Notes: generated by a model not told the origin, from the letters alone. 64,000 bases of DNA from a candidate division FCPU426 bacterium (GCA_027366525.1 DAHXKG010000006.1:1-64000); one strand, 5' to 3'; numbered from the stretch's first letter, positions 1 to 55,876 are shown. Program-made: numbers and translations.

Positions 1-345
1 CTCCGACGAACACACCAACCAACACACCGACGAATACATCAACTACTACACCAACCAATACACCCACGAATACGCCAACCAACACCCCGACGAATACTCC
101 GACGAACACACCAACCAACACACCGACAAACACGCCAACCAACACCCCAACAAATATACCCACGAATACACCGACCAAGACACCGACAACCACACCAACC
201 ATCACACCGATGAATACGTCAACCTATACACCCACACATACGCCAACCAGTACATTTACAAGCACACCGACGAATACGCCGACCCTCACACCAACGAATA
301 CACCAACAAATACGCTTACTGACACACCAACTGCTATTTTATTGA
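1..345 (+). repeat. Degenerate 12-bp tandem repeat encoding PTNT
   Basis: About 28 units of a 12-bp repeat of the form acaccaaccaac or acaccgacgaat, continuing off the left edge. All units are in frame and encode P-T-N-T with N replaced occasionally by S, T, K or H. Third-position changes differ between units, so the array is old and not a recent slippage product, but it could still vary in length. Confidence 0.9.
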
Positions 346-1688
346 CTCCAACACCGACACTAACTCCGATCATAACTTTGCAATTAACAACTCAATCAAA
401 CTTTGTACATCCATTAGATCAAGTTGTTTACTATTTGATATATACAAATTCTGGGAGTAGCACTGCTATTAATGCAGTTCTCACGGATAATTTACCTGAA
501 TCTTCAACTATGAGTTATGTGGCTGGAACGGCTACTAATGGCGGAATTTATAATTCCTCAAATAATAGTTTATCGTGGAATATCGGCTCAATTTCTCCAG
601 GCGCTTCTGTAACAGTGAGTTATGAAGCGAGTGTTGTACTGGGTGATTCTGCAGGGATGACATTAACCACTCAAGCAAATTTAAAAGATTCGAATCAAAG
701 TATTAATGCACTAAATTCTGTTGTAGTTGTTGGAGGATATCAAATTACAATTTCAATTTACAATGATTCAGGGGAGTTGGTTAAAACAATAAATGAGTTT
801 ACGATGTCAAGTGATATTTCTAATTTTACTACTGAAATAAATGGCATTATTGGTGATAGTATTTCTTCTTATCAAGATAATGTGAGTTTTGAATATAATG
901 GGAATATAATTGGCTCTTGGAATTTAACAAATAGCGCAGGTGGTACAGTTATTAATGGTACATATTTTGTTAAAATCGATAGTACCAATGCATTTGGAAG
1001 TACAACTAGTATTACAAAATCATTAACTGTTTTAGCACAACAAGAAACATTGCAAATAAGTGTTTATAATGAAGCAGGAGAAGAAGTTAAACTTTTTAGT
1101 ACTGCAGAAATTAATCAACAATTAGGGTCTCCATTAGAACCATCAGATTTTCAAGTATCCACTATTCATATTTCTCCAAGTATAATTCATCCTTCATATA
1201 CACAACCATTGGGAGTGGGAAATTATACAATTATTACTCTCGGATCTGGAAGAAGCTTAACTTGGACTGGACGTTCAAATACTGGAATAATTGTTAGTAA
1301 TGGCCAGTATTTTATTGAAATTCGAGCAATTAATGGAAGCGCTGTTGATGGTGCAATGATTTTGCCAATAAGCGTATTGAGTACAGGATATAATTTTATG
1401 GATCAAGTTTTAGTGGCTCCAAATCCAATTCATTTAAATAGTACTTATCAAGCAAGGATATTGGTGCCACCCAACGGAAATGTATTTAATCATGTAAACG
1501 TAAAAATCTATACAGTGGATGGAGAATTAATAGAAACTTTAGAAAATGCTCCAGGGACAATGAATGTAATTTGGCCTATTAAAGGAGTCAGTCCTTTAGC
1601 GGTGGGAACCTATCTTATTGATGTTGAGCTTAGATATAACAATGCATTAGTTCAACGAAAAATTTTAAAAGCATTTATAATTCCGTAA
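3..1688 (+). CDS. Secreted PTNT-repeat protein with DUF11 and FlgD-like Ig domains (5' partial)
   Basis: The frame is open from the left edge of the window, so the start and any signal peptide lie upstream; the ATG at 210 is only an internal methionine. The first 110 or so visible residues are a PTNT-type tetrapeptide repeat. A DUF11-type domain follows (about nt 375-700). Two or three FlgD-like Ig domains come next, recognisable by the GELV...tW..........G.Y pattern, and the last ends at the C-terminus (about nt 1385-1688). By family knowledge, Thr/Pro linkers with FlgD-like C-terminal domains are typical of large extracellular proteins, and the last domain resembles sorting domains of the type IX kind. 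Function is not recognisable; surface exposure is inferred. A terminator hairpin follows directly. Confidence 0.8.
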
Positions 1689-43684: not shown

Positions 43685-43796
43685 TACCAGAAAAGATAGA
43701 TGATCGACCGTCCCAGGATTACTTGGAATGACACCTTAGGCAACAATTTTTAGCTTAATAACATAAAAAGAGAACTTAATTTTGAAAGGATTCTCC

Positions 43797-44576
43797 ATGA
43801 TTCCTCTAACCCTTACACCTTGGCCGGTGCTTTTGGACGTCATCGATTCTATCCAGTTCACTGAGAACCCTGCCGGAAAATCCGCTTATCGAGTGGATCC
43901 TTCGCCTCAGTTTGTCATGGGTTTCCAACTGGAAGGTCGTCTGCAAGCGCTTAAGTCCGAAGGAGACAAAACTCTCACTCCTTCAGGGGTGACCGGTATC
44001 CAGAACCAAAACCGTCTTTACCAATCCGTGGGCAAAACCCGCTCTATTTTAGTGCATTTCAAACCCTGGGGCGCTGCTTGTTTTCTGACCGGGCCCATGA
44101 GCGAACTGATGGGAGAGAACGTGGGTCTTCGTGATATCTTGGACCCCCAAGAGGTACGCGACTTAGAGGATCAGCTTTACAACACCGAATTCCGACAAGC
44201 GTCTCGCATTTTGCAGGCTTTCTTGGTAAAGCACCGCCTATTCCGGGAATCCGATCCGCTGGTTTTGAATGCTGCCAAGCACATCATGCTCAAGGCTGGC
44301 AACCTCTCGATATCCCGCATGGCCGATAGCCTAGCCACCACTGAACGATCGCTGGAAAGACGCTTCCAACAGTGGATTGGTACTAGTCCCAAGCATTTTG
44401 CAGCGCTCTTGCGGTTCCAGAAGAGTCTGGATCTTTTAAGGCGGGGAAAAGAAGGTACCGAAGTAGCCTATGAATGCGGGTATTTCGACCAGGCCCATTT
44501 CATTCGCGAGTTCAAGCGTTTCACTGGGTCTACACCCGGTGCCTACTTGTTTTCTTCCAAAACCTTGGGGCTCTAA
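43797..44576 (+). CDS. AraC-family transcriptional regulator
   Basis: 259 residues from ATG 43797, which has AAAGGA 6 bases upstream; the TTG 15 bases earlier would overlap that site. The N-terminal 150 residues resemble the DUF6597-type ligand domain of AraC proteins (HFKPWGAACFL, MSELMGENVGLRDIL). The C-terminal double HTH is clear: SISRMADSLATTERSLERRF, then AYECGYFDQAHFIREFKRFTG. GC content, near 50%, and codon use (many C/G third positions) differ sharply from surrounding genes, so recent transfer is likely. Confidence 0.88.
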   Translation: MIPLTLTPWPVLLDVIDSIQFTENPAGKSAYRVDPSPQFVMGFQLEGRLQALKSEGDKTLTPSGVTGIQNQNRLYQSVGKTRSILVHFKPWGAACFLTGPMSELMGENVGLRDILDPQEVRDLEDQLYNTEFRQASRILQAFLVKHRLFRESDPLVLNAAKHIMLKAGNLSISRMADSLATTERSLERRFQQWIGTSPKHFAALLRFQKSLDLLRRGKEGTEVAYECGYFDQAHFIREFKRFTGSTPGAYLFSSKTLGL

Positions 44577-44723
44577 TTTAAGAAAGAGTCTTTAGGCCTT
44601 GTCTAGGTGGGCTTCCTTTTGTCGGATTCTTACAATCAATTCGGTTGACTTAGATCTATCTTAGAAAGTGAGTTGCGAAAATTAATTTGGAAGAATCACA
44701 CAAAAATTTTTAAGGAGGTCAGG

Positions 44724-45383
44724 GTGGAAAACAAGAACAGAGTGGATGTTTTTATCAACGTACACAAAGGGTTGCGTTGGGGTCTTTTTGGACTGTCCCT
44801 CAAGTTGGGAAGTCTTGATTGGACCGATGTGGAGGAAATACAAGCTGTGGAAGTTGATTTTTCCGACATGATAAACTTTCTGCGAGAGCACGCGAAGAAC
44901 GAGGACACAGTCCAAGTACCTTTCTTGGAAGGGCGCGTACCTGGGGCTACTTGTAGGATGACGGAAGACCATCGGAGACTAGAAAAAGAGGTGGATGAAC
45001 TGGAGGAGGCTTGGGCCCAGGTTTACGCCACGCCTTCCTCAAAAGAAGGTTATGCCTTGTACCTGCGTTTTAACCGCTTTCTATCCAACTACTTGGTTCA
45101 CATGGACTTAGAGGAGCGGGAAATAACGGAGGTCATCTACCGCAATTTCATGGATGAGGCGATTCAGATGGAATTTAAAAAGATTGTCGCGCGTACGAAC
45201 CCCCAGGACATGGGTATGATGCTTTCTCAGATGATTCCGGGGATGAACCATTCGGAGAGGTTGGTTTTTTTAGATGGACTCAAAGCTGTTGTCTCGGCAG
45301 CGGTTTTCGAGAACGTCAAGGCCTTGGCCCAGAGAGTATTGACGTCCCGGGACTGGAAAAAATTATTGTCGCAACTGAACTGA
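44724..45383 (+). CDS. Hemerythrin-domain protein
   Basis: 219 residues from GTG 44724, preceded by a perfect TAAGGAGG 5 bases upstream. Candidate di-iron ligands appear in order: H-K-G-L-R near residue 14, REHAKNED, EDHRRLEKEVDELE, and YLVHMDLEERE. This is the four-helix hemerythrin pattern, with a further helical C-terminal 80 residues. Such proteins bind O2 or NO or protect Fe-S centres. High GC like the AraC gene, with which it is probably a transferred pair; AraC may regulate it. Confidence 0.75.
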   Translation: MENKNRVDVFINVHKGLRWGLFGLSLKLGSLDWTDVEEIQAVEVDFSDMINFLREHAKNEDTVQVPFLEGRVPGATCRMTEDHRRLEKEVDELEEAWAQVYATPSSKEGYALYLRFNRFLSNYLVHMDLEEREITEVIYRNFMDEAIQMEFKKIVARTNPQDMGMMLSQMIPGMNHSERLVFLDGLKAVVSAAVFENVKALAQRVLTSRDWKKLLSQLN

Positions 45384-45684: not shown

Positions 45685-45786
45685 GTAATTTTTTTTTAAA
45701 AAATTATAGAACTAATTCCAATAATTAATTAAAAGTAAAAGAAGTTATTAGAAATTTATTCAATTTTAAAATTGCGAAATAATAAA

Positions 45787-46272
45787 ATGAAAATATTTTT
45801 TGATTGTCTTGTTTTAATTTTAATAGTTAATTCTTCATATGCATCAGTATCTAATGATTTAAATCAGATATATCGAAAATGGGAGGTAATGATTGATCTC
45901 ATCCCAAAGAATCAAATTAATGTTATTAAAAATAACAGACAACGGATAAAGAAAAGTCGAGTGGTTTATTTTCCGAGTTTTTCACCCCGGTATTATCAAA
46001 TTAAAAGTTATTCAGTTTGGGAAAATTTTAAAGCAAATATTATTTGTCGAAGAAGGCAATTTGAATTATTAATTCACTCAAATAGATCTATTGAAATGCT
46101 TAATATTAAAAATATAAAAACAAACCATATGATTTTTTCTGAATTCATTGGAGGAATTAAAAATTTTTTTGTTTTTGTCCATCACCAATATCAAAAACAT
46201 TTAGAAATAAATTTAAAAATAAAGGTGGATGGATTTATTAGCTCTGTTTTAATCCCGTTGCGAGGAAAATAA
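45787..46272 (+). CDS. Secreted protein, first gene of the T4SS-like operon
   Basis: 161 residues from ATG 45787 (an upstream TTG at 45772 is possible). The signal peptide is FFDCLVLILIVNSSYAS. The mature part is basic, with KNNRQRIKKSR and ICRRRQFELL, and has no recognised domain. The stop is 2 bases before the next gene. Position at the head of a VirB-like operon suggests a periplasmic or surface component such as a VirB5-type minor subunit, but this is inference only. Confidence 0.6.
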   Translation: MKIFFDCLVLILIVNSSYASVSNDLNQIYRKWEVMIDLIPKNQINVIKNNRQRIKKSRVVYFPSFSPRYYQIKSYSVWENFKANIICRRRQFELLIHSNRSIEMLNIKNIKTNHMIFSEFIGGIKNFFVFVHHQYQKHLEINLKIKVDGFISSVLIPLRGK

Positions 46273-46274
46273 AT

Positions 46275-47075
46275 ATGCGTTGGTACATTGTGTTATTGAT
46301 ATTTGGAATATGGTCATCGGCATATGCTTATTCAATTAATCAAGATGTATATTATTTTGAAAAAAATTTAGTTGATCACTTCAGGTTGTTTAAAACTGCA
46401 TATAACACAGAATTGGGCAATTATCAGAATTTTCAATTTTTTAATCAATATAAGAATACCTTTTTTAATAATGTTTCAAAAAACAATTCCGAAAGATTAA
46501 AAATTTTGAAAATCTTAGTTGATATGTCAAAAAATTTGTACTTAATTTCTGGAACAAATTTAGGTTTTTCTGTAGCTGTGCAAGAAAAAAAATTATCAAT
46601 TTATTTGTTGAGAAGTAATGATCGAGAATTTAAAAAAATTGGATTTTTGCTTGAGAAACAAGCACGAGAAATTTTAATTGGAAATCGTGAAAAGGCACAG
46701 GAATTAGCAATTCGAATTTCTCGATGTTGGAAAATAATGAATCACAATAATAGCAACACAACTTTAGAGAATTCTAATGGTGGATTAGTCGGTGCCTTTT
46801 TAAAAAGCACTATGCAATTTATCGAATCACTTATAAGTGTTGTGGGTAATAACATATTCGAGAACTTTTTGAATCAACTGGGAATTTCAAATGCAATGAA
46901 TATCTTTTATCCCTTGAGTAATAATGCAATTCAAAACTTGAATTTACAATCTTGGTCCAATTTATCAAGTGAAACTAATATGATTCAAAATTTTAATAAT
47001 TTATCGGGAAATTTTTCCATATCTAATTTAAATTTTTTGAAAAATATTGGGACAGTTCCTGCCCCAATTTATTAA
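46275..47075 (+). CDS. Secreted Asn-rich protein, second gene of the T4SS-like operon
   Basis: 266 residues with a signal peptide (YIVLLIFGIWSSAYA). The N-terminal 150 residues are helical and charged. The C-terminal 110 are rich in Asn, Ser, Leu and Phe with a weak hydrophobic stretch (FIESLISVVGNNIFENFL). No family recognised. VirB5-like pilus-tip proteins are also secreted and helical, so that role is conceivable. It is followed after 15 bases by the pilin-like gene. Confidence 0.6.
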   Translation: MRWYIVLLIFGIWSSAYAYSINQDVYYFEKNLVDHFRLFKTAYNTELGNYQNFQFFNQYKNTFFNNVSKNNSERLKILKILVDMSKNLYLISGTNLGFSVAVQEKKLSIYLLRSNDREFKKIGFLLEKQAREILIGNREKAQELAIRISRCWKIMNHNNSNTTLENSNGGLVGAFLKSTMQFIESLISVVGNNIFENFLNQLGISNAMNIFYPLSNNAIQNLNLQSWSNLSSETNMIQNFNNLSGNFSISNLNFLKNIGTVPAPIY

Positions 47076-47090
47076 GACGGGAGAAAAAGA

Positions 47091-47450
47091 ATGCGAAAGA
47101 CGAATGACATAAAAAAAATGTTACATACGATTGCGTTGGTGTTTTTACTTACTTTGAGAATTGTGAGTGTAGTTTGTGCCCAAGTTACGTTGGGTGGAAG
47201 TTATGGAAGCCAATTGATGAATTATATTCAGGAATTAATGAATTTCGTGTTTTATTTTGCTTTAACAGGTTGTTTGGCATCATTAATTGCAGCGGGCTAT
47301 AAATTTTCACAAGGCGATCAAGGTGGGATGGAAGCCGTTAAGAGGGCAATTATTGGAACGGCCATTGCCACAGGTGCAGCTGGGATTTTTAAATATCTTA
47401 TTTATACTGCTCAGAATCTTGGAGTTAGTGGAAAGGGAAGTTTATTTTAA
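47091..47450 (+). CDS. VirB2-like T4SS pilin
   Basis: 119 residues: a signal sequence or first helix (ALVFLLTLRIVSVVCA), a short loop GGSYGS, then two hydrophobic helices (FVFYFALTGCLASLIAAGYKF and IIGTAIATGAAGIFKYLIY) joined by the polar loop SQGDQGGMEAVKR. This two-helix, AGYK...G...A architecture is that of the T4SS_pilin and VirB2 families. GGGAG precedes the ATG. It sits directly before the VirB6-like gene (2-base gap). Confidence 0.75.
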   Translation: MRKTNDIKKMLHTIALVFLLTLRIVSVVCAQVTLGGSYGSQLMNYIQELMNFVFYFALTGCLASLIAAGYKFSQGDQGGMEAVKRAIIGTAIATGAAGIFKYLIYTAQNLGVSGKGSLF

Positions 47451-47452
47451 GC

Positions 47453-49240
47453 ATGATTTTAATATTTATTTTTTTAATTGGGATTGCTACTTTAGAAATA
47501 CCACAAGCGTATGCTAATAATATTGTCGCACAAGCGCTTCAGCAACCTGTTTTCCTCCCTTATGTTGGAAACTTCTTTGAAAAATCCTTACACAATGTTC
47601 TTTTAGGATTTTTTAATGGATATGATAATATTGCATCATTGATTTTAAAATTCATGAATGGATTGGCAACGATTTGCTTTAACAGTTTGATTTGGATATA
47701 TAGTCAGATTGGCACTATTTTGATTCCAATCCCAAATTTGGCTGATATACAAAATTACTCGAAACTCGCCCAAGTAGTAGTTAAAAATATTTACCAGTTG
47801 ATGAGTGTGCTTGGGCTTATTATTGCTCTCGTGTTTTTTATTATAAATGTGGCAATATCTTCTTCGGGATTTTCCAATAGAAAAACAAGTTTTTTGGCTG
47901 TTTTTAGATTAATAGTTTCTATTGGAATTTTAATTTCTTGGCCTCTTTTTTTTTCATTTACAAGTAATTGGTTAACCTCACTTGGTTTCTTGATTTTTAG
48001 TCAAAATAGAATTGAAGCTTCAGGTGTCTTTCAGGGATTGAAAAATATGAATAAGTTTCCGATGAAGATGGCATCATCAAGCAATTCTAATATTGTAATA
48101 CCTAATACACTTGGCCCCAATTTTTTGATTCAAAGTAAAAAAATTTGGAAAATTATTTTTTATATTGCATCTTTTTTCTGCCTAATCGGAATAATTTATG
48201 CTGGATATAAATATTCTAATGGAAATTCGGAAGCCATTAAGATTTTGTCAGGAGCAATTTTAGGTTTGATTCTGATTTTGAGTGCTAAATTCTTGTTGAT
48301 ATATATATTTCATTTTTCCAAATTATTAACCAGTTATCGGAAGTTATCGTTAATAAGATCAAATAATTCGATAAATAATTTCGGAATATTTTCTGTGCCG
48401 TCGCAATATACGTTCAGCCATTTTTCGGAAAATTCCTTTTTAAATAATCAAAGTTTTCAAATTACAGAAAATTTGGTTGCTAGTTTTTTGAAAATTGTAA
48501 TTAGTTTTTGGGGATTAACGATTTGCATAGGAGTGATTTTGTCGAAATTTTATCAAGTAGTTTCATTAATTATTTTATTTTTTCTAGGGCCAATTTTTGC
48601 TGGATTTATTGCACATCCAAACACAGAACATATTTCATGGTCTGGATTTAATTTGATTTTGAAATTACAGTTATATTCGGTTATTTGGTCAATTGCTTTG
48701 GTCATTTTATATCTAATCGGCTCTATCCGATTTATAAATATTAATTTAGCAACAGAGAACCTGTTTTCTGCATTTGCCATTTTGGCTGGTTTAAAGCTCA
48801 TGCAAAATAGCGATGGGATTGCCCAATTGTTTGTCGGCGGAAATACACATTTAACAGATGCCAAATCAGATTGGAGTCAATTTTATCAGTCAATAATTGC
48901 AGGTGGTGTAATTGAAAATATTAAATCAAATTATCGTTCATGGAATAATTCTAAGGGAAGTACAATTGGCGAGCGAAGTGCAGGCGTAGTAGGTGGAATT
49001 GTTGGGACCATAGTACCGTTTATTGGTCCTGAAGCAGGTTTTGAAAGTGGAAAAAATTTTTTTAAATTTAGTAAATTCATTCTCGGAAATGGAGATAGCG
49101 ATTCTAGCTCATTGCGTAAAAATGAAACAGACGCGAAACTTTCAGAAATTCTTCGTGAACTTTCACGAGGTAAGGAAATTCGACGAATTCAGAGAAATGA
49201 ATTTTTGAAGGATAAAAATGATAATGGGCAAACCTCTTAA
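47453..49240 (+). CDS. VirB6-like polytopic membrane protein with an internal pilin-like segment
   Basis: 595 residues. A signal peptide (FLIGIATLEIPQAYA) is followed by about ten hydrophobic helices to residue 470 and a Gly-rich stretch (GVVGGIVGTIVPFIGPEAG, about 518-536). The C-terminal tail is charged. Topology and neighbours match VirB6/TrbL, the inner-membrane channel component. Residues near 237-282 (GIIYAGYKYSNGNSEAIKIL and on) align with the pilin encoded just upstream, as if a VirB2 domain were built in. The gene overlaps the next by 23 bases. Confidence 0.72.
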   Translation: MILIFIFLIGIATLEIPQAYANNIVAQALQQPVFLPYVGNFFEKSLHNVLLGFFNGYDNIASLILKFMNGLATICFNSLIWIYSQIGTILIPIPNLADIQNYSKLAQVVVKNIYQLMSVLGLIIALVFFIINVAISSSGFSNRKTSFLAVFRLIVSIGILISWPLFFSFTSNWLTSLGFLIFSQNRIEASGVFQGLKNMNKFPMKMASSSNSNIVIPNTLGPNFLIQSKKIWKIIFYIASFFCLIGIIYAGYKYSNGNSEAIKILSGAILGLILILSAKFLLIYIFHFSKLLTSYRKLSLIRSNNSINNFGIFSVPSQYTFSHFSENSFLNNQSFQITENLVASFLKIVISFWGLTICIGVILSKFYQVVSLIILFFLGPIFAGFIAHPNTEHISWSGFNLILKLQLYSVIWSIALVILYLIGSIRFININLATENLFSAFAILAGLKLMQNSDGIAQLFVGGNTHLTDAKSDWSQFYQSIIAGGVIENIKSNYRSWNNSKGSTIGERSAGVVGGIVGTIVPFIGPEAGFESGKNFFKFSKFILGNGDSDSSSLRKNETDAKLSEILRELSRGKEIRRIQRNEFLKDKNDNGQTS

Positions 49241-49514
49241 TATTGAATCAAAGATATTCGGATTTCTAAAAATATCAAACTTGTATTTTTTAATAAGTTC
49301 ATGTTTAGTAATACTGTTTTTTTTATCATTGTTTGAAAATCAAATAGGATTTGGAATGTGTTTTGTTATTTTAATTGTGCTTTTGTCTGTGGAAGTTTCA
49401 TATTTTTTTGTTGCGAATTCACTGCCGGAAAATTTTATTTTTCATTGGGTCAAATTTAAATTAAGCCCTAAATATTTTTATCCTAAAAAACAATCAATAA
49501 AGAGAAGAAAATGA
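49218..49514 (+). CDS. VirB3/TraL-like small membrane protein
   Basis: 98 residues: a short N-terminus with KPLNIESKIFGFLKISN, two hydrophobic helices (about 20-37 and 43-68) and a basic C-terminus (PKKQSIKRRK). Size, topology, the opening pattern and the place immediately before virB4 are those of VirB3 or TraL, which dock onto the VirB4 ATPase. The start overlaps the VirB6-like gene and the stop overlaps virB4, so all three are coupled. Confidence 0.65.
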   Translation: MIMGKPLNIESKIFGFLKISNLYFLISSCLVILFFLSLFENQIGFGMCFVILIVLLSVEVSYFFVANSLPENFIFHWVKFKLSPKYFYPKKQSIKRRK

Positions 49515-51997
49515 AAAAAGTAAGTCCAGTAGCGGATTTGCTAAGAGTGATTCAAATCGGTGATGGCTTTTTATTGATGAATCGGCCTGATCAAATTGTT
49601 TGTGGATATAAGGTATTCGGCGGAGTTGATCCCTGGATTGAAGACGTAGAAGGTATAAAGAATAAAATTAAAAAGTTTGAAAATGCATTGGCGCAGATAA
49701 AAGTCGATGAACAAATTCAAATTATTTTTAAAAAAATTCCAATTAAAGAAAAATGTGAAATTCAACAATGGGAGTTACAGAATAATGTTTTGATTAATGA
49801 GAATTTTATTCGATACAAAAAGTATTATGATCACTGGTTAGATCAATGGATTAAGTCTGGGAAGTTATGTCGCTATGAAACATTTATTTTTTTTAGCATA
49901 CTTAAGTCAAGAAATTTATTTTTAGGGAAAAATAATTCTAATGATCACTGGGATTCACTTATTGATTTAACATCTATCCGAAGTCGAAGTTGGAGTGAAT
50001 ATTTGACCGGATGTGGAATAAAAATTGCTCCAATTCAATCTCATGAAATAATCAAATTATTAAGTAGTGAAATGTGTGGTTCTTCAAATTATTTAAATTT
50101 TTCAAAAATTTTAAATAGCTCTTCAGTTTCTTTTGGGAAAAATTCTTTTCTGACTATTTCTGAAAAATTAGCACGATTGCCTTTGAAGTTTGAAAAAAAC
50201 TATTTTCAAATGGGAGATATTTATGGAAAGACGTTTTTTGTGTCTGAATTTGCTGATGTCGAAGAACGTCCTGCATTTCTTACATATTTTTTAACACAAC
50301 CAAATATCTTTAAAATTAATATTTTTGCTCACGGGATAGACCAAATGAATGCCAAAAAAAATGTTGAGCGTCAGTTAAAGTGGGATTTAAGCTCTTTGCA
50401 AAAAGGGAACTTGATTAATGCAGAAAGCCAAGCACAATTAGAGTTGCGCCAGAGAGCAATGGATGAACTGGCTCGAGGTGAAACTAAACTGATTCAATTT
50501 TCAATGTATATAACGGCCTACTCATCAGATTTACGAAAATTGTTTGAAATTTCTGATAATTTTATGAGTCACATTGGAATTTTTAATGCATTTGATGGCT
50601 ATTTTGAGCAAAAAGAATTGTTTATTTGTACTTTGCCACAAAACAAAAATATTTCAGAGCACGAATTTTTAATAACGACTAAAAGTTTGTCAAATTGTTA
50701 TCCCTTTTTTGAAAATTCACTTTCACAAATTTCTGGAAATTTTTTGGGTGTTAATTTGAATAATGAATTGATATGCCATGATCCATGGTCATCCAAACTT
50801 GAGAATTGGAACGCGATCGTGATAGGTAAGTCTGGAAGTGGAAAATCATTTTTTATTCAACAACAAATTATTCGAGCATTTTCTTGGAATCCATTTATTG
50901 TGATTATTGATCGTTCAAAATCATATGAACTAATTTGTTATTTGTACGGTGGGCAATATGTCTATATCGATTTAAATGGATCCATTCAATTTAATTTATT
51001 TGATACTGATGAAGAATTGCTCAGAAAAAATCAAGGGGTAATTAGTTCAGAGAAAATGAGTGATTTACTGGGATTTTTGACAGTTGTACTCACTGAAGAA
51101 AAGCAAGAACGATTACCAAATGTTGTTGTTGCTTATATTGAAGAAGCGATTCAAATGACTTATAAACGAATTTTTCATGAAAATCCTTTACATCCCATTC
51201 CACTCTTGCGTGACTTGAAAAAAACTTTATTAATGATGGGCGAGGATGTGAAAATAATTTCTGAATATAGAATGTTATGTATTAAATATTCCAAAATGCT
51301 TGATCCTTATACTGAAAACGGAGTTTTTTCTAATTTAACAGATCGTCCTAGTAATTTTAAAATGCAAGCAACTTTTGTTGTATTTGATACAAGTCGATTG
51401 CCTGAAAATTTAGTTAGTTTAGGTGTTTACGTTATTTCACAATTTTGTTTGAACCAAGCAGAAGTCAATAAAAAAAATGGGAAAAAAACATGGTTATTAA
51501 TTGATGAAGCATGGTTCTTAGCAAAATTCGCCGCAGGGATCTATTTATTAATGAATTTAGCCAAACGTAGTCGACATATTGGATTATCTTCCATTTTTGC
51601 AACTCAGCAGTTATCCGATTTTTTAAAAAATGTAGATGTTCGTCCAGTGTTAGATAATGCCACCTGTAAATTTATTTTCAAACCGGGTGAGAATGACCTT
51701 AGTTTATTGCAGGAAATTCTCGCATTTAATTCTCAAGAAATGAACCTGTTAAAGCAGCTACAACAGATACGAGGGCAATATTCCCAGTGCTTTTGTATCT
51801 TGGGAAATTTAGGGAAAGGTATAGCTCATATCGTTGCAGATCCAGTGTCATATTGGATCGCTACAACACATCCCACGGAGGTTTTAGAACGCGAAAACTA
51901 TTTTAAAAAAAACATTAAGGAAATTCAAGGAATGAGTGTTGCAGATCTTTGGAGTTTAGTATTTTCATTTGTGGCAAGTAAATTGGAAGAGTATTAA
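49511..51997 (+). CDS. virB4: VirB4/TraC-type T4SS ATPase
   Basis: 828 residues. The N-terminal 400 match the TraC/VirB4 pattern (VADLLRVIQIGDGFLLMNRP at the start). Walker A IGKSGSGKSFFIQQ is near residues 437-450, and Walker B KTWLLIDEAWFLAKF near 658-672. HIGLSSIFATQQLSDFL with its Q follows, then SQCFCILGNLGKG. All ATPase motifs are intact, so the motor is probably active. VirB4 is the universal hallmark of type IV secretion. No coupling ATPase (VirD4) or VirB11 is nearby. Confidence 0.93.
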   Translation: MKKVSPVADLLRVIQIGDGFLLMNRPDQIVCGYKVFGGVDPWIEDVEGIKNKIKKFENALAQIKVDEQIQIIFKKIPIKEKCEIQQWELQNNVLINENFIRYKKYYDHWLDQWIKSGKLCRYETFIFFSILKSRNLFLGKNNSNDHWDSLIDLTSIRSRSWSEYLTGCGIKIAPIQSHEIIKLLSSEMCGSSNYLNFSKILNSSSVSFGKNSFLTISEKLARLPLKFEKNYFQMGDIYGKTFFVSEFADVEERPAFLTYFLTQPNIFKINIFAHGIDQMNAKKNVERQLKWDLSSLQKGNLINAESQAQLELRQRAMDELARGETKLIQFSMYITAYSSDLRKLFEISDNFMSHIGIFNAFDGYFEQKELFICTLPQNKNISEHEFLITTKSLSNCYPFFENSLSQISGNFLGVNLNNELICHDPWSSKLENWNAIVIGKSGSGKSFFIQQQIIRAFSWNPFIVIIDRSKSYELICYLYGGQYVYIDLNGSIQFNLFDTDEELLRKNQGVISSEKMSDLLGFLTVVLTEEKQERLPNVVVAYIEEAIQMTYKRIFHENPLHPIPLLRDLKKTLLMMGEDVKIISEYRMLCIKYSKMLDPYTENGVFSNLTDRPSNFKMQATFVVFDTSRLPENLVSLGVYVISQFCLNQAEVNKKNGKKTWLLIDEAWFLAKFAAGIYLLMNLAKRSRHIGLSSIFATQQLSDFLKNVDVRPVLDNATCKFIFKPGENDLSLLQEILAFNSQEMNLLKQLQQIRGQYSQCFCILGNLGKGIAHIVADPVSYWIATTHPTEVLERENYFKKNIKEIQGMSVADLWSLVFSFVASKLEEY

Positions 51998-52002
51998 TTA
52001 AT

Positions 52003-52545
52003 ATGGAATTTCCTGAAATTGAAACTTCAATATTCAATAAAGAAAGAAAAATAATATGGAAAGTTGTTTGGTTTGGAATAATGGGCATTGTTTTTTTAAT
52101 GATGTATTTTTCATATCATTTCTTTATTTTGAAACATAGTCAACGAGAGTTTGTTCAAAAAAAAGAAAATATAAGAGATATTGCATTTGCGGAACAAGTT
52201 GTTCTAAGTTTTAACAACATCGATTATAAAAATTTGTCCAATCAAGATCTTGAATTAGCCTCACTGCTTTCTCCCAAGCTTTATCATGCATATGAAAAAT
52301 ATTTTTTAAATCAATCTTTTGTTTCTTTAATAAATACGTATAAAATTTTTATTACATTTCAAAAAATTGGGCACGCTAAAATTTTCAAAAGAAATAAAAC
52401 AGAAGTGGCAATTCAAATGCGTGGGCTTGATGTATTTTATTCTAATCAAAAACATTCGCAGATAGAGATCCCTTTCCGATTCTTGGTTCAAATTTCGAAA
52501 AATCGTCAAGGTAAATTAATTGCGACTAAAATTGAGGAATTATGA
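52003..52545 (+). CDS. VirB8/TraE-like bitopic protein
   Basis: 180 residues with a short cytoplasmic N-terminus, one TM helix (about 20-43) and a periplasmic domain of about 135 residues, predicted alpha helices then beta strands. This is the topology of VirB8/TraE, whose periplasmic domain has an NTF2-like fold. Sequence resemblance is weak, so the call rests on topology, size and position after virB4. The stop overlaps the next gene at ATGA. Confidence 0.55.
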   Translation: MEFPEIETSIFNKERKIIWKVVWFGIMGIVFLMMYFSYHFFILKHSQREFVQKKENIRDIAFAEQVVLSFNNIDYKNLSNQDLELASLLSPKLYHAYEKYFLNQSFVSLINTYKIFITFQKIGHAKIFKRNKTEVAIQMRGLDVFYSNQKHSQIEIPFRFLVQISKNRQGKLIATKIEEL

Positions 52546-53855
52546 GCTTTGATTTTCATATGAAAACAGATATAAATAAATCGAATGAGTTATTACTACG
52601 AGCTGACTTGCATTGGAAATCGGGAAATATTTCTGAGGCAATTCAATCAATTCGCGAATGCCTTAGCTATCATTCCGCAAATGTAGATGCATATTTATTG
52701 GCATGTAAAATTTATTTGGATAATTCATATTTTAATATTGCTTTTGAAGTTTTAAATGAATTGCATTCATTTTCTTTACCGTCTCGGGATAGTTTAATAT
52801 TGAAAGCTAAAGTAGAGCTTAAATTAAAAAAATATGTAGATGCTGAAGCAATAATTAATAATTTTTTAAAGAATGGCATGGAAGATGAAGAAATACTTTT
52901 ACTACTTGCTGATCTTTCCCAACAAACTGGAGAATACAAAAAGTCCATTCAAATTTATGAAAAGCTTCTGGAAAATCAACGTTGGAATATTACAATTTTA
53001 TATAATCTTGCACTAAGTTATTACTTAAGTAGTGAGTGGAATGAAACAATTTTTTATTGCCAGCAAATTATTGAAACCGGACATCGTTCTGCTAAAGTTG
53101 ATAAACTATATCGTCAATCATTAAATAAAAAACGGGAAGAATTAGTTGATAAAAGCAACTCATCTTTATTGGGCTGGATAAAGTTAAAATGGATTGCACC
53201 TATTTCTGAAGAACAGATACTCCTTTTTTCAGAAAATGAGCGACAAATTCGGAAAAAAGAATATCGAACATTCATTGATGAAAGTACGGGAGCTTTGAAT
53301 TTCAGGGCGATGATGGATTATGTACCATCATTTTTATTAAATTCAAAAAAAAGTGTATTTGTTTCACTCGTTGATATTGATTATTTCAAAGCTTTTAATG
53401 AGTTTTATAGTCATCAAGTTGCCGATCAAATATTAAAAGTTTTAGTTTATGCTGGAGAAAAGTTTTTTCAAAAAAATTTTTTCAGAAGAGGCGGAGAGGA
53501 ATTTGTATGGGTAATGGAAACTGAAGTTGAGCTTATGTTAAAACAGGCGCGGGAATTTCGAATTTACACGGAGGAAGTGTTATTGGCTGATGCGAATAAT
53601 TATTTAAAAAAAATGCAAATAGTTCATCCTAGAAAAAAAACTTTATATCAAATTTCTCATTTAATTACCATCAGTCAGGGGATTAGTCAGTATAAAACTG
53701 AGGGCCAAAACATAATGGAGCTTCTTGAAGTTGCAGATGATAATCTCCGATCGGCTAAATTGAGTGGTCGAAATGCTATTTTTTTTAAAAATAAGATGGT
53801 GGATCAAGGACAACTTCCAAAATCGATTCGATTTGATGGTAGAGACGGGAATTGA
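52542..53855 (+). CDS. TPR-GGDEF protein, probable diguanylate cyclase
   Basis: 437 residues, cytoplasmic. Residues 10-185 hold about five TPR-like repeats. The C-terminal GGDEF domain (about 240-425) has SLVDIDYFKAFNEFYSHQ, the active-site RRGGEEF and the closing LLEVADDNLRSAKLSGRNA. The GGEEF signature and metal-binding Asp are kept, so cyclic di-GMP synthesis is plausible. The RxxD inhibitory site before GGEEF is missing, so product inhibition is not expected. Last gene of the T4SS-like operon, translationally coupled to the VirB8-like gene. Confidence 0.88.
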   Translation: MSFDFHMKTDINKSNELLLRADLHWKSGNISEAIQSIRECLSYHSANVDAYLLACKIYLDNSYFNIAFEVLNELHSFSLPSRDSLILKAKVELKLKKYVDAEAIINNFLKNGMEDEEILLLLADLSQQTGEYKKSIQIYEKLLENQRWNITILYNLALSYYLSSEWNETIFYCQQIIETGHRSAKVDKLYRQSLNKKREELVDKSNSSLLGWIKLKWIAPISEEQILLFSENERQIRKKEYRTFIDESTGALNFRAMMDYVPSFLLNSKKSVFVSLVDIDYFKAFNEFYSHQVADQILKVLVYAGEKFFQKNFFRRGGEEFVWVMETEVELMLKQAREFRIYTEEVLLADANNYLKKMQIVHPRKKTLYQISHLITISQGISQYKTEGQNIMELLEVADDNLRSAKLSGRNAIFFKNKMVDQGQLPKSIRFDGRDGN

Positions 53856-55429: not shown

Positions 55430-55876
55430 TTACGTGGAAATAGCAGGATTGGAATCCATCGAAATTTTGTTTGAGTTTTTATGTGAGCCTTTAGTTAAAC
55501 GATATCCCGCGGCTTCAATGGCTAACTTCCAGCTTCCATATTCTCGTCGAGCTGCTGAATAAAGAGACAATTTTTCCCGATAAATGGTTAAAAGATTTTG
55601 CATTTCGCTTTTTTTAATTTCTTCTAAAACGGATTCTTTGGTCCATTTTGTCAATTTACTTCGTCTTCTTTTTTTCCCTTCTTCAAGAATTTGTTCATAA
55701 TTAATGCCTGCAGATTTTACGGCTAAGCGCCAATTTCCGAAATATCTTTTTGAACAAGAGGCTGTAAACAAAGGTATATAATTCTTAGAAATATTACTAG
55801 CCGAGATATCAATACCAGTTTGATGAAGGTTTTGTATGGTACTTATAATTTTTTCTTTACTCCACTTCTGCTTCAT
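55430..55876 (-). CDS. Protein with two homing-endonuclease-associated repeats
   Basis: 148 residues with two copies of a 60-residue module: KWSKEKIISTIQNLHQTG ... SKRYFGNWRLAVKSAGI and KWTKESVLEEIKKSE ... RREYGSWKLAIEAAGY. The W-[ST]-K-E start, F/YG-[NS]-W, then A-G-[IY] close match the HNH_repeat (homing endonuclease associated repeat), a DNA-binding module. No nuclease domain is attached, so it may be a stand-alone DNA-binding protein. AGGAG precedes the ATG. It is on the opposite strand to both neighbours. Confidence 0.7.
   Translation of the reverse strand: MKQKWSKEKIISTIQNLHQTGIDISASNISKNYIPLFTASCSKRYFGNWRLAVKSAGINYEQILEEGKKRRRSKLTKWTKESVLEEIKKSEMQNLLTIYREKLSLYSAARREYGSWKLAIEAAGYRLTKGSHKNSNKISMDSNPAIST

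Follow-up and report, generated by a model that had tools for sequence, protein, structure and literature searches.

Background

The closest described relatives of the locus reported here are the MPF_FATA type IV secretion systems (T4SSs), found on integrative conjugative elements (ICEs) and plasmids of monoderm Firmicutes and Actinobacteria and marked by a CD1110-type VirB4, and the T4SSs of Patescibacteria, where canonical relaxases are rare and MOBC is the commonest class (PMC12102498). MOBC relaxases, represented in CONJscan by the PF13814 family (PMC5357655), are akin to PD-(D/E)XK nucleases (PMC12857230), and CloDF13, which encodes such a relaxase together with its type IV coupling protein (T4CP), can be mobilized by a T4SS in trans (PMC7431656). 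For Gram-negative bacteria, a 2025 review describes VirB7/B9/B10 outer-membrane core complexes in all T4SSs (PMC12857230); a keyword check of the same review turned up no mention of c-di-GMP.

Here we describe a T4SS-like operon on contig C30 of a candidate division FCPU426 genome (G000; 2.0 Mb, 97.5% complete, of an order common to two relatives); the analysed stretch of this contig, 64,000 nucleotides long, is called the window below. We consider it somewhat more probable than an even chance that this operon is the mating-pair-formation core of an FCPU426-specific conjugation system that is derived from monoderms, adapted to diderms and, in this genome, chromosomal and dispersed.

Organization of the operon

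The original prediction of a compact eight-gene operon on one strand agrees with our reading of the window, where all eight ORFs are open and intact on the + strand (no internal stops) and tightly packed, being separated by gaps of 2 to 15 bases or overlapping by 4 to 23 bases. As judged from its sequence, the identity of the VirB4 ATPase (49511..51997) is beyond doubt, with matches to PF19044 (TraG P-loop; 2.3e-24), TraC-F (2.9e-50), CD1110 (9.8e-50) and the VirB4 structure 4ag5 (1e-33) and with both motifs intact (Walker A GKSGSGKS, Walker B WLLIDEA); virB4 is single copy in the window genome. Candidates for its inner-membrane partners VirB3, VirB6 and VirB8 adjoin it. The VirB3/PrgI-like protein directly ahead (49218..49514) is weakly identified by a PF12666 (PrgI) score of 0.043, two transmembrane segments and the position of its gene. 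The VirB6-like polytopic channel protein (47453..49240) has eight hydrophobic segments, and two of its homologues match PF04610 (TrbL/VirB6; best 1.3e-6). The VirB8-like bitopic protein (52003..52545) has one transmembrane segment and an NTF2-like periplasmic domain: its family profile finds the IcmL-like structure 5cnl at 0.0016, one family member matches TcpC at 0.0038, and an AlphaFold model of low confidence shows NTF2-like topology (TM 0.62 to 5cnl by target length). Together with the VirB2-like pilin (47091..47450), which has two hydrophobic segments and a match to PF04956 (TrbC/VirB2) of 6.8e-5, under the Pfam cut-off, VirB6 and VirB8 are weakly recognized from single sequences and supported mainly through their relatives, which make all three assignments sounder.

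The operon opens with two exported proteins. The first, g1 (45772..46272, ca. 160 aa), starts at either TTG 45772 or ATG 45787, has an N-terminal hydrophobic segment and is matched by homologues at the corresponding position in relatives; it is probably a subunit rich in beta structure, located in the periplasm or associated with the outer membrane. The second, g2 (46275..47075, 266 aa), belongs to a family that we saw only together with the FCPU426 T4SS, with its homologues lying between g1 and VirB2. PDB profile searches gave TPR matches only for g1, all from long family members, and no match for g2; a weak match of g2 to PxpA was put down to chance. At the other end, the last gene (52542..53855) encodes a TPR-GGDEF protein (PF00990 at 2e-15, TPR models) with the active-site motif RRGGEEF and no I-site seen upstream of it. 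This gene comes after VirB8 or VirB4 in relatives, and its product is a candidate c-di-GMP regulator of the T4SS. We recognized no VirB1 peptidoglycan hydrolase in the operon, and promoter and terminator scans gave nothing above shuffled sequences.

Surroundings in the window and the host envelope

The codon composition of the operon is close to that of the genome (GC3 0.23 versus 0.26), which suggests a long residence. The original prediction had placed it between housekeeping genes, which does not hold for its direct 5' neighbors, an AraC-like regulator and a hemerythrin-like gene (HHE, by eye) at window 43782-45383: this pair, with GC 0.49 and GC3 0.57 where the window has 0.36 and 0.26, is probably recent foreign DNA. 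No integrase ORF was recognized within the window, and a search of 43-56 kb gave no convincing bounding repeats. Integrase, par and topoisomerase III genes were likewise not seen around the operon in the window genome. The protein encoded on the - strand at 55430-55876 has, with 212 bits, a close relative in an HNH_repeat (PF18780) protein encoded upstream of the T4SS on G003:C47 (L023:5263-5796), and no further match among the fetched loci. At the far end of the window (210-1688), a Thr-Pro-rich repeat opens a secreted-looking protein, and comparable TPTPT stretches occur in lipoproteins of relatives.

The host genome encodes one Omp85 (BamA-type) protein (2e-53) and, by reading of ORFs, apparent Mla-type genes at window 9.4-11.8 kb, which together indicate a diderm envelope. 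An LptD profile matched neither the window genome nor most relatives and is thus uninformative.

Conservation across FCPU426

Synteny comparison bore out the expectation that the genes form a conserved unit, as they recur with their order kept, and often in several copies, in at least seven other FCPU426 genomes. The order in G001, G003, G009, G012, G019 and G031 is lipoprotein(s) where present, an outer-membrane protein (OMP), g1, g2, VirB2, VirB6, VirB3, VirB4, VirB8 and TPR-GGDEF, and G037 follows it up to an interruption by a contig end; in G012 and G009 the OMP gene is not immediately ahead of g1, and we did not recognize g1 and VirB8 in the G012 cluster or VirB8 in G003:C87. Several copies each occur in G003 (one of them, G003:C81, truncated, with a VirB4 lacking its N-terminal third), in G019 and in G031, whose two copies are 87% identical across 8.1 kb, one lying amid housekeeping genes of the chromosome (G031:C105) and the other on a small contig.

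Some of these clusters keep the company of genes for replication, partitioning or transfer. The 38.5-kb contig G019:C68 combines the T4SS with RepA-like, ParA-like, ParB-like, T4CP and Replic_Relax genes, G003:C87 has ParA/ParB-like, T4CP and Replic_Relax-type (RR) genes, G003:C47 has T4CP and RR genes, and in G031 the par, T4CP and RR genes are found on a contig of their own (G031:C108), apart from the T4SS. In G019 and G009 the GGDEF gene is followed immediately 3' by one for topoisomerase III, which in G031:C106 lies ca. 2 kb farther on, while in G001 this place is taken by a SpoVG-like gene and a tyrosine integrase homologous to those of T4CP-RR-integrase islands in G002, G003 and G004. 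None of the relatives' contigs closes on itself, and we regard these contexts as plasmid- or ICE-like, with plasmid status not proven. Since T4CP, Replic_Relax, ParA/B and RepA genes lie on the same contigs as the T4SS in relatives, DNA transfer is the likely role of this family.

A coupling protein and a MOBC-like protein elsewhere in the genome

None of VirB9, VirB10, VirD4 or a relaxase was recognized in the window, in line with the original prediction; for the coupling protein and a relaxase-like gene this absence does not extend to the whole genome. A PF10412 search located an intact T4CP unlinked to the operon on another contig (G000:C27:80086-81864; 592 aa; PF12696 at 4e-13, PF10412 at 2e-11), with two N-terminal transmembrane segments and the Walker A motif GGTGSGKT. 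Its gene overlaps by 4 bases with that of a 273-aa MOBC-like protein (C27:81861-82682), which is homologous to the RR protein of relatives. Profile-profile comparison with the Replic_Relax homologues of G031 and G019 gave 89% (E 2e-6), and the G019 homologue itself matches PF13814 (Replic_Relax) at 1.3e-9; the protein of the window genome has no direct Pfam match, including PF13814, and only chance matches in a PDB profile search. In this family the N-terminus is winged-helix-like, and H101, D156-G and E173-x-E175 come after it; D156, E173 and E175 are conserved, and the D...E-x-E spacing resembles that of the acidic residues in TraX of pAD1. Our relaxase searches covered MOBP (PF03432) and MOBF (PF08751) and found neither in any of the 44 phylum genomes, with control carriers positive.

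In a tree of T4CPs, the long branch of the C27 protein falls among integrase-associated elements and not with T4SS-linked T4CPs; this protein may therefore serve another element, and its partnership with the window's T4SS is putative. Islands of T4CP, RR in some cases and integrase genes were also seen at L131, L133 and L135 (G002:C17, G003:C82 and G000:C27:183-203 kb), some with restriction-modification-like genes. They occupy one shared chromosomal neighborhood of glycosyltransferase and lipoprotein genes across three genera and look like mobilizable elements with a coupling protein of their own; the window genome keeps just fragments of integrase and T4CP from such an island (C27, ca. 190 kb).

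An outer-membrane module with an independent existence

A porin-like OMP gene and lipoprotein genes stand ahead of the operon in most relatives, and the window genome has an intact pair of lipoprotein (LP2) and OMP at C22:206589-208918. The suggestion of a purely inner-membrane machine is thus doubtful. The OMPs end in F or W following a beta-signal-like stretch; a PDB profile search found no match for them, and an AlphaFold model made without alignment was unusable (pLDDT 30). The OMP is present in 8/8 T4SS genomes and 3/36 others (p 1e-6, with shared ancestry ignored). At the end of C31 (L121:7857-11414), we noted a broken-frame OMP, a collagen-like lipoprotein with GPT/GPS repeats and transposase-like fragments.

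OMP genes occur also where no T4SS was found, and this outer-membrane module leads an existence independent of the T4SS. At L125, L126 and L127 (G001:C1, G006:C129 and G002:C1), OMPs and proteins with g1-like domains are encoded chromosomally without T4SS genes, and the G006 and G002 loci include an LP2-like lipoprotein and C-terminal TPRs too. Since a g1-like domain is seen beside the OMP even at loci where no T4SS was found, g1 is probably part of the outer-membrane module and not cargo.

Absence of VirB9/VirB10 and ancestry of VirB4

The most striking point of our analysis is that VirB10 (PF03743) and VirB9 (PF03524) are absent by Pfam from 44/44 FCPU426 genomes, with controls positive. The original description of a chromosomal T4SS core without them is supported, and the lack of both extends to the full set of phylum genomes sampled. 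In the VirB4 tree, a midpoint-rooted one of a small taxon sample, the FCPU426 sequences form a single clade (100/99 and 100/100) that is sister to the monoderm-type MPF_FATA and FATA-like sequences, two of them from small genomes that look patescibacterial by size, outside the FATA clade proper and apart from F-type TraC, and within which the window VirB4 groups with its own order. This phylogeny, which had been proposed as a check, suggests that the FCPU426 T4SS either arose from the monoderm MPF_FATA lineage or has a common ancestor with it. The family has been found so far in FCPU426 only: in a VirB4 search of 289 genomes, full-length FCPU426 proteins scored 750 to 1170 bits and the best other protein 254; the best PLSDB plasmid VirB4s are about 22% to 25% identical and none reaches 80% coverage; and no matches were found in the viral contigs scanned, nor relatives in genome contigs scanned with the window VirB4 alone as query.

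Across the 44 genomes, T4SS and T4CP occur together in six, the T4SS alone in two (G009 and G037), the T4CP alone in two and neither in 34 (Fisher p 1e-4, with shared ancestry ignored), counts in which contig breaks are able to hide genes.

Alternative explanations

A T4SS domesticated on the chromosome for pilus display, DNA uptake or protein secretion, with the T4CP-MOBC pair belonging to an unrelated mobile element, is an unlikely explanation that nonetheless deserves serious weight. It agrees with the stand-alone chromosomal site without mobility genes nearby, the mostly genome-like codon composition, the comparable setting of the G031:C105 cluster and the grouping of the window genome's T4CP with integrase-linked elements, and it has a precedent in Patescibacteria, where FATA-type T4SSs mostly come without relaxases (PMC12102498). 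The co-occurrence of T4CP and T4SS in the phylum, the sister clusters alongside par, rep, T4CP and Replic_Relax genes and the intact T4CP and MOBC-like pair in the very same genome speak against it.

We find it improbable that the operon is what remains of a decaying ICE, its T4SS block left in place while OMP, T4CP and integration genes were scattered or died: truncated copies in relatives such as the VirB4 of G003:C81 and the remnants on C31 (broken OMP) and C27 (integrase and T4CP fragments) would fit such a history, but the eight genes are all unbroken and keep their ATPase and GGDEF motifs, and T4CP, MOBC-like and LP2-OMP genes elsewhere in the genome are intact as well. Secretion of the two leading proteins as effectors, as raised in the original prediction, is hardly credible; g1 and g2 are exported and head the operon, but they recur beside the T4SS in nearly all relatives, as fits structural subunits, and elsewhere domains like that of g1 are found paired with the OMP.

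A proposed conjugation machinery

Under the favored reading of a dispersed FCPU426 conjugation system, VirB3, VirB4, VirB6 and VirB8 would form the inner-membrane translocon, to which a VirD4-like coupling protein would deliver DNA that a MOBC-type (PD-(D/E)XK-like) relaxase has processed. The periplasm might be bridged by g1, g2 and VirB2, the beta-barrel OMP and lipoproteins may stand in for VirB7/B9/B10 at the outer membrane, and the TPR-GGDEF protein could put the T4SS under c-di-GMP control. The three modules lie apart in the window genome, on C30 (T4SS), C27 (T4CP and MOBC-like protein) and C22 (lipoprotein and OMP), and we infer that they work together on DNA as their substrate with the OMP as the outer-membrane component; given that T4CPs are often far from virB4 (PMC12102498), this dispersal is compatible with function. 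Whether the phylum harbors a distinct class of diderm T4SS, in which a beta-barrel OMP and lipoproteins instead of VirB7/B9/B10 pass the substrate or pilus out under TPR-GGDEF gating, is a tentative proposal that we rate slightly below an even chance.

If true, a monoderm-like T4SS without VirB9/B10 in a BamA-bearing phylum, tied to a new OMP family, would depart from the rule given for Gram-negative species, and an OMP in place of VirB7/B9/B10 would be a new building plan for T4SSs. With the FCPU426 system it would become testable how T4SSs cross from one envelope type to the other, monoderm or diderm, and whether unrelated parts can be assembled anew into an outer-membrane exit; its recurrent TPR-GGDEF gene hints at a switching of DNA transfer by c-di-GMP.

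Comparison with known systems

With MPF_FATA, the FCPU426 systems share VirB3 (PrgI), VirB4, VirB6, VirB8 and a VirD4-type T4CP, the lack of recognized VirB9/B10/B11 and a sister position of their VirB4 clades; they differ in their diderm host, VirB2-like pilin, porin-like OMP and lipoproteins, TPR-GGDEF gene and lack of a recognized VirB1. The T4SSs of Patescibacteria are likewise FATA-related, with a VirB2-like pilin, often chromosomal and usually with a T4CP distant from virB4 (PMC12102498), whereas those of FCPU426 have a host with an outer membrane, a separate VirB4 clade, the OMP module and GGDEF. The Gram-negative MPF_T and MPF_F systems (R388, F) have the VirB2/B3/B4/B6/B8 set and the diderm host in common with FCPU426, which differs from them in having no VirB9/B10 by Pfam in 44 genomes and a VirB4 outside the F-type clade. 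Finally, the arrangement of a T4CP gene with a MOBC-like gene right behind it resembles MobB-MobC of CloDF13 (MOBC1, PMC7431656), though the pair in the window genome is chromosomal and very distant in sequence.
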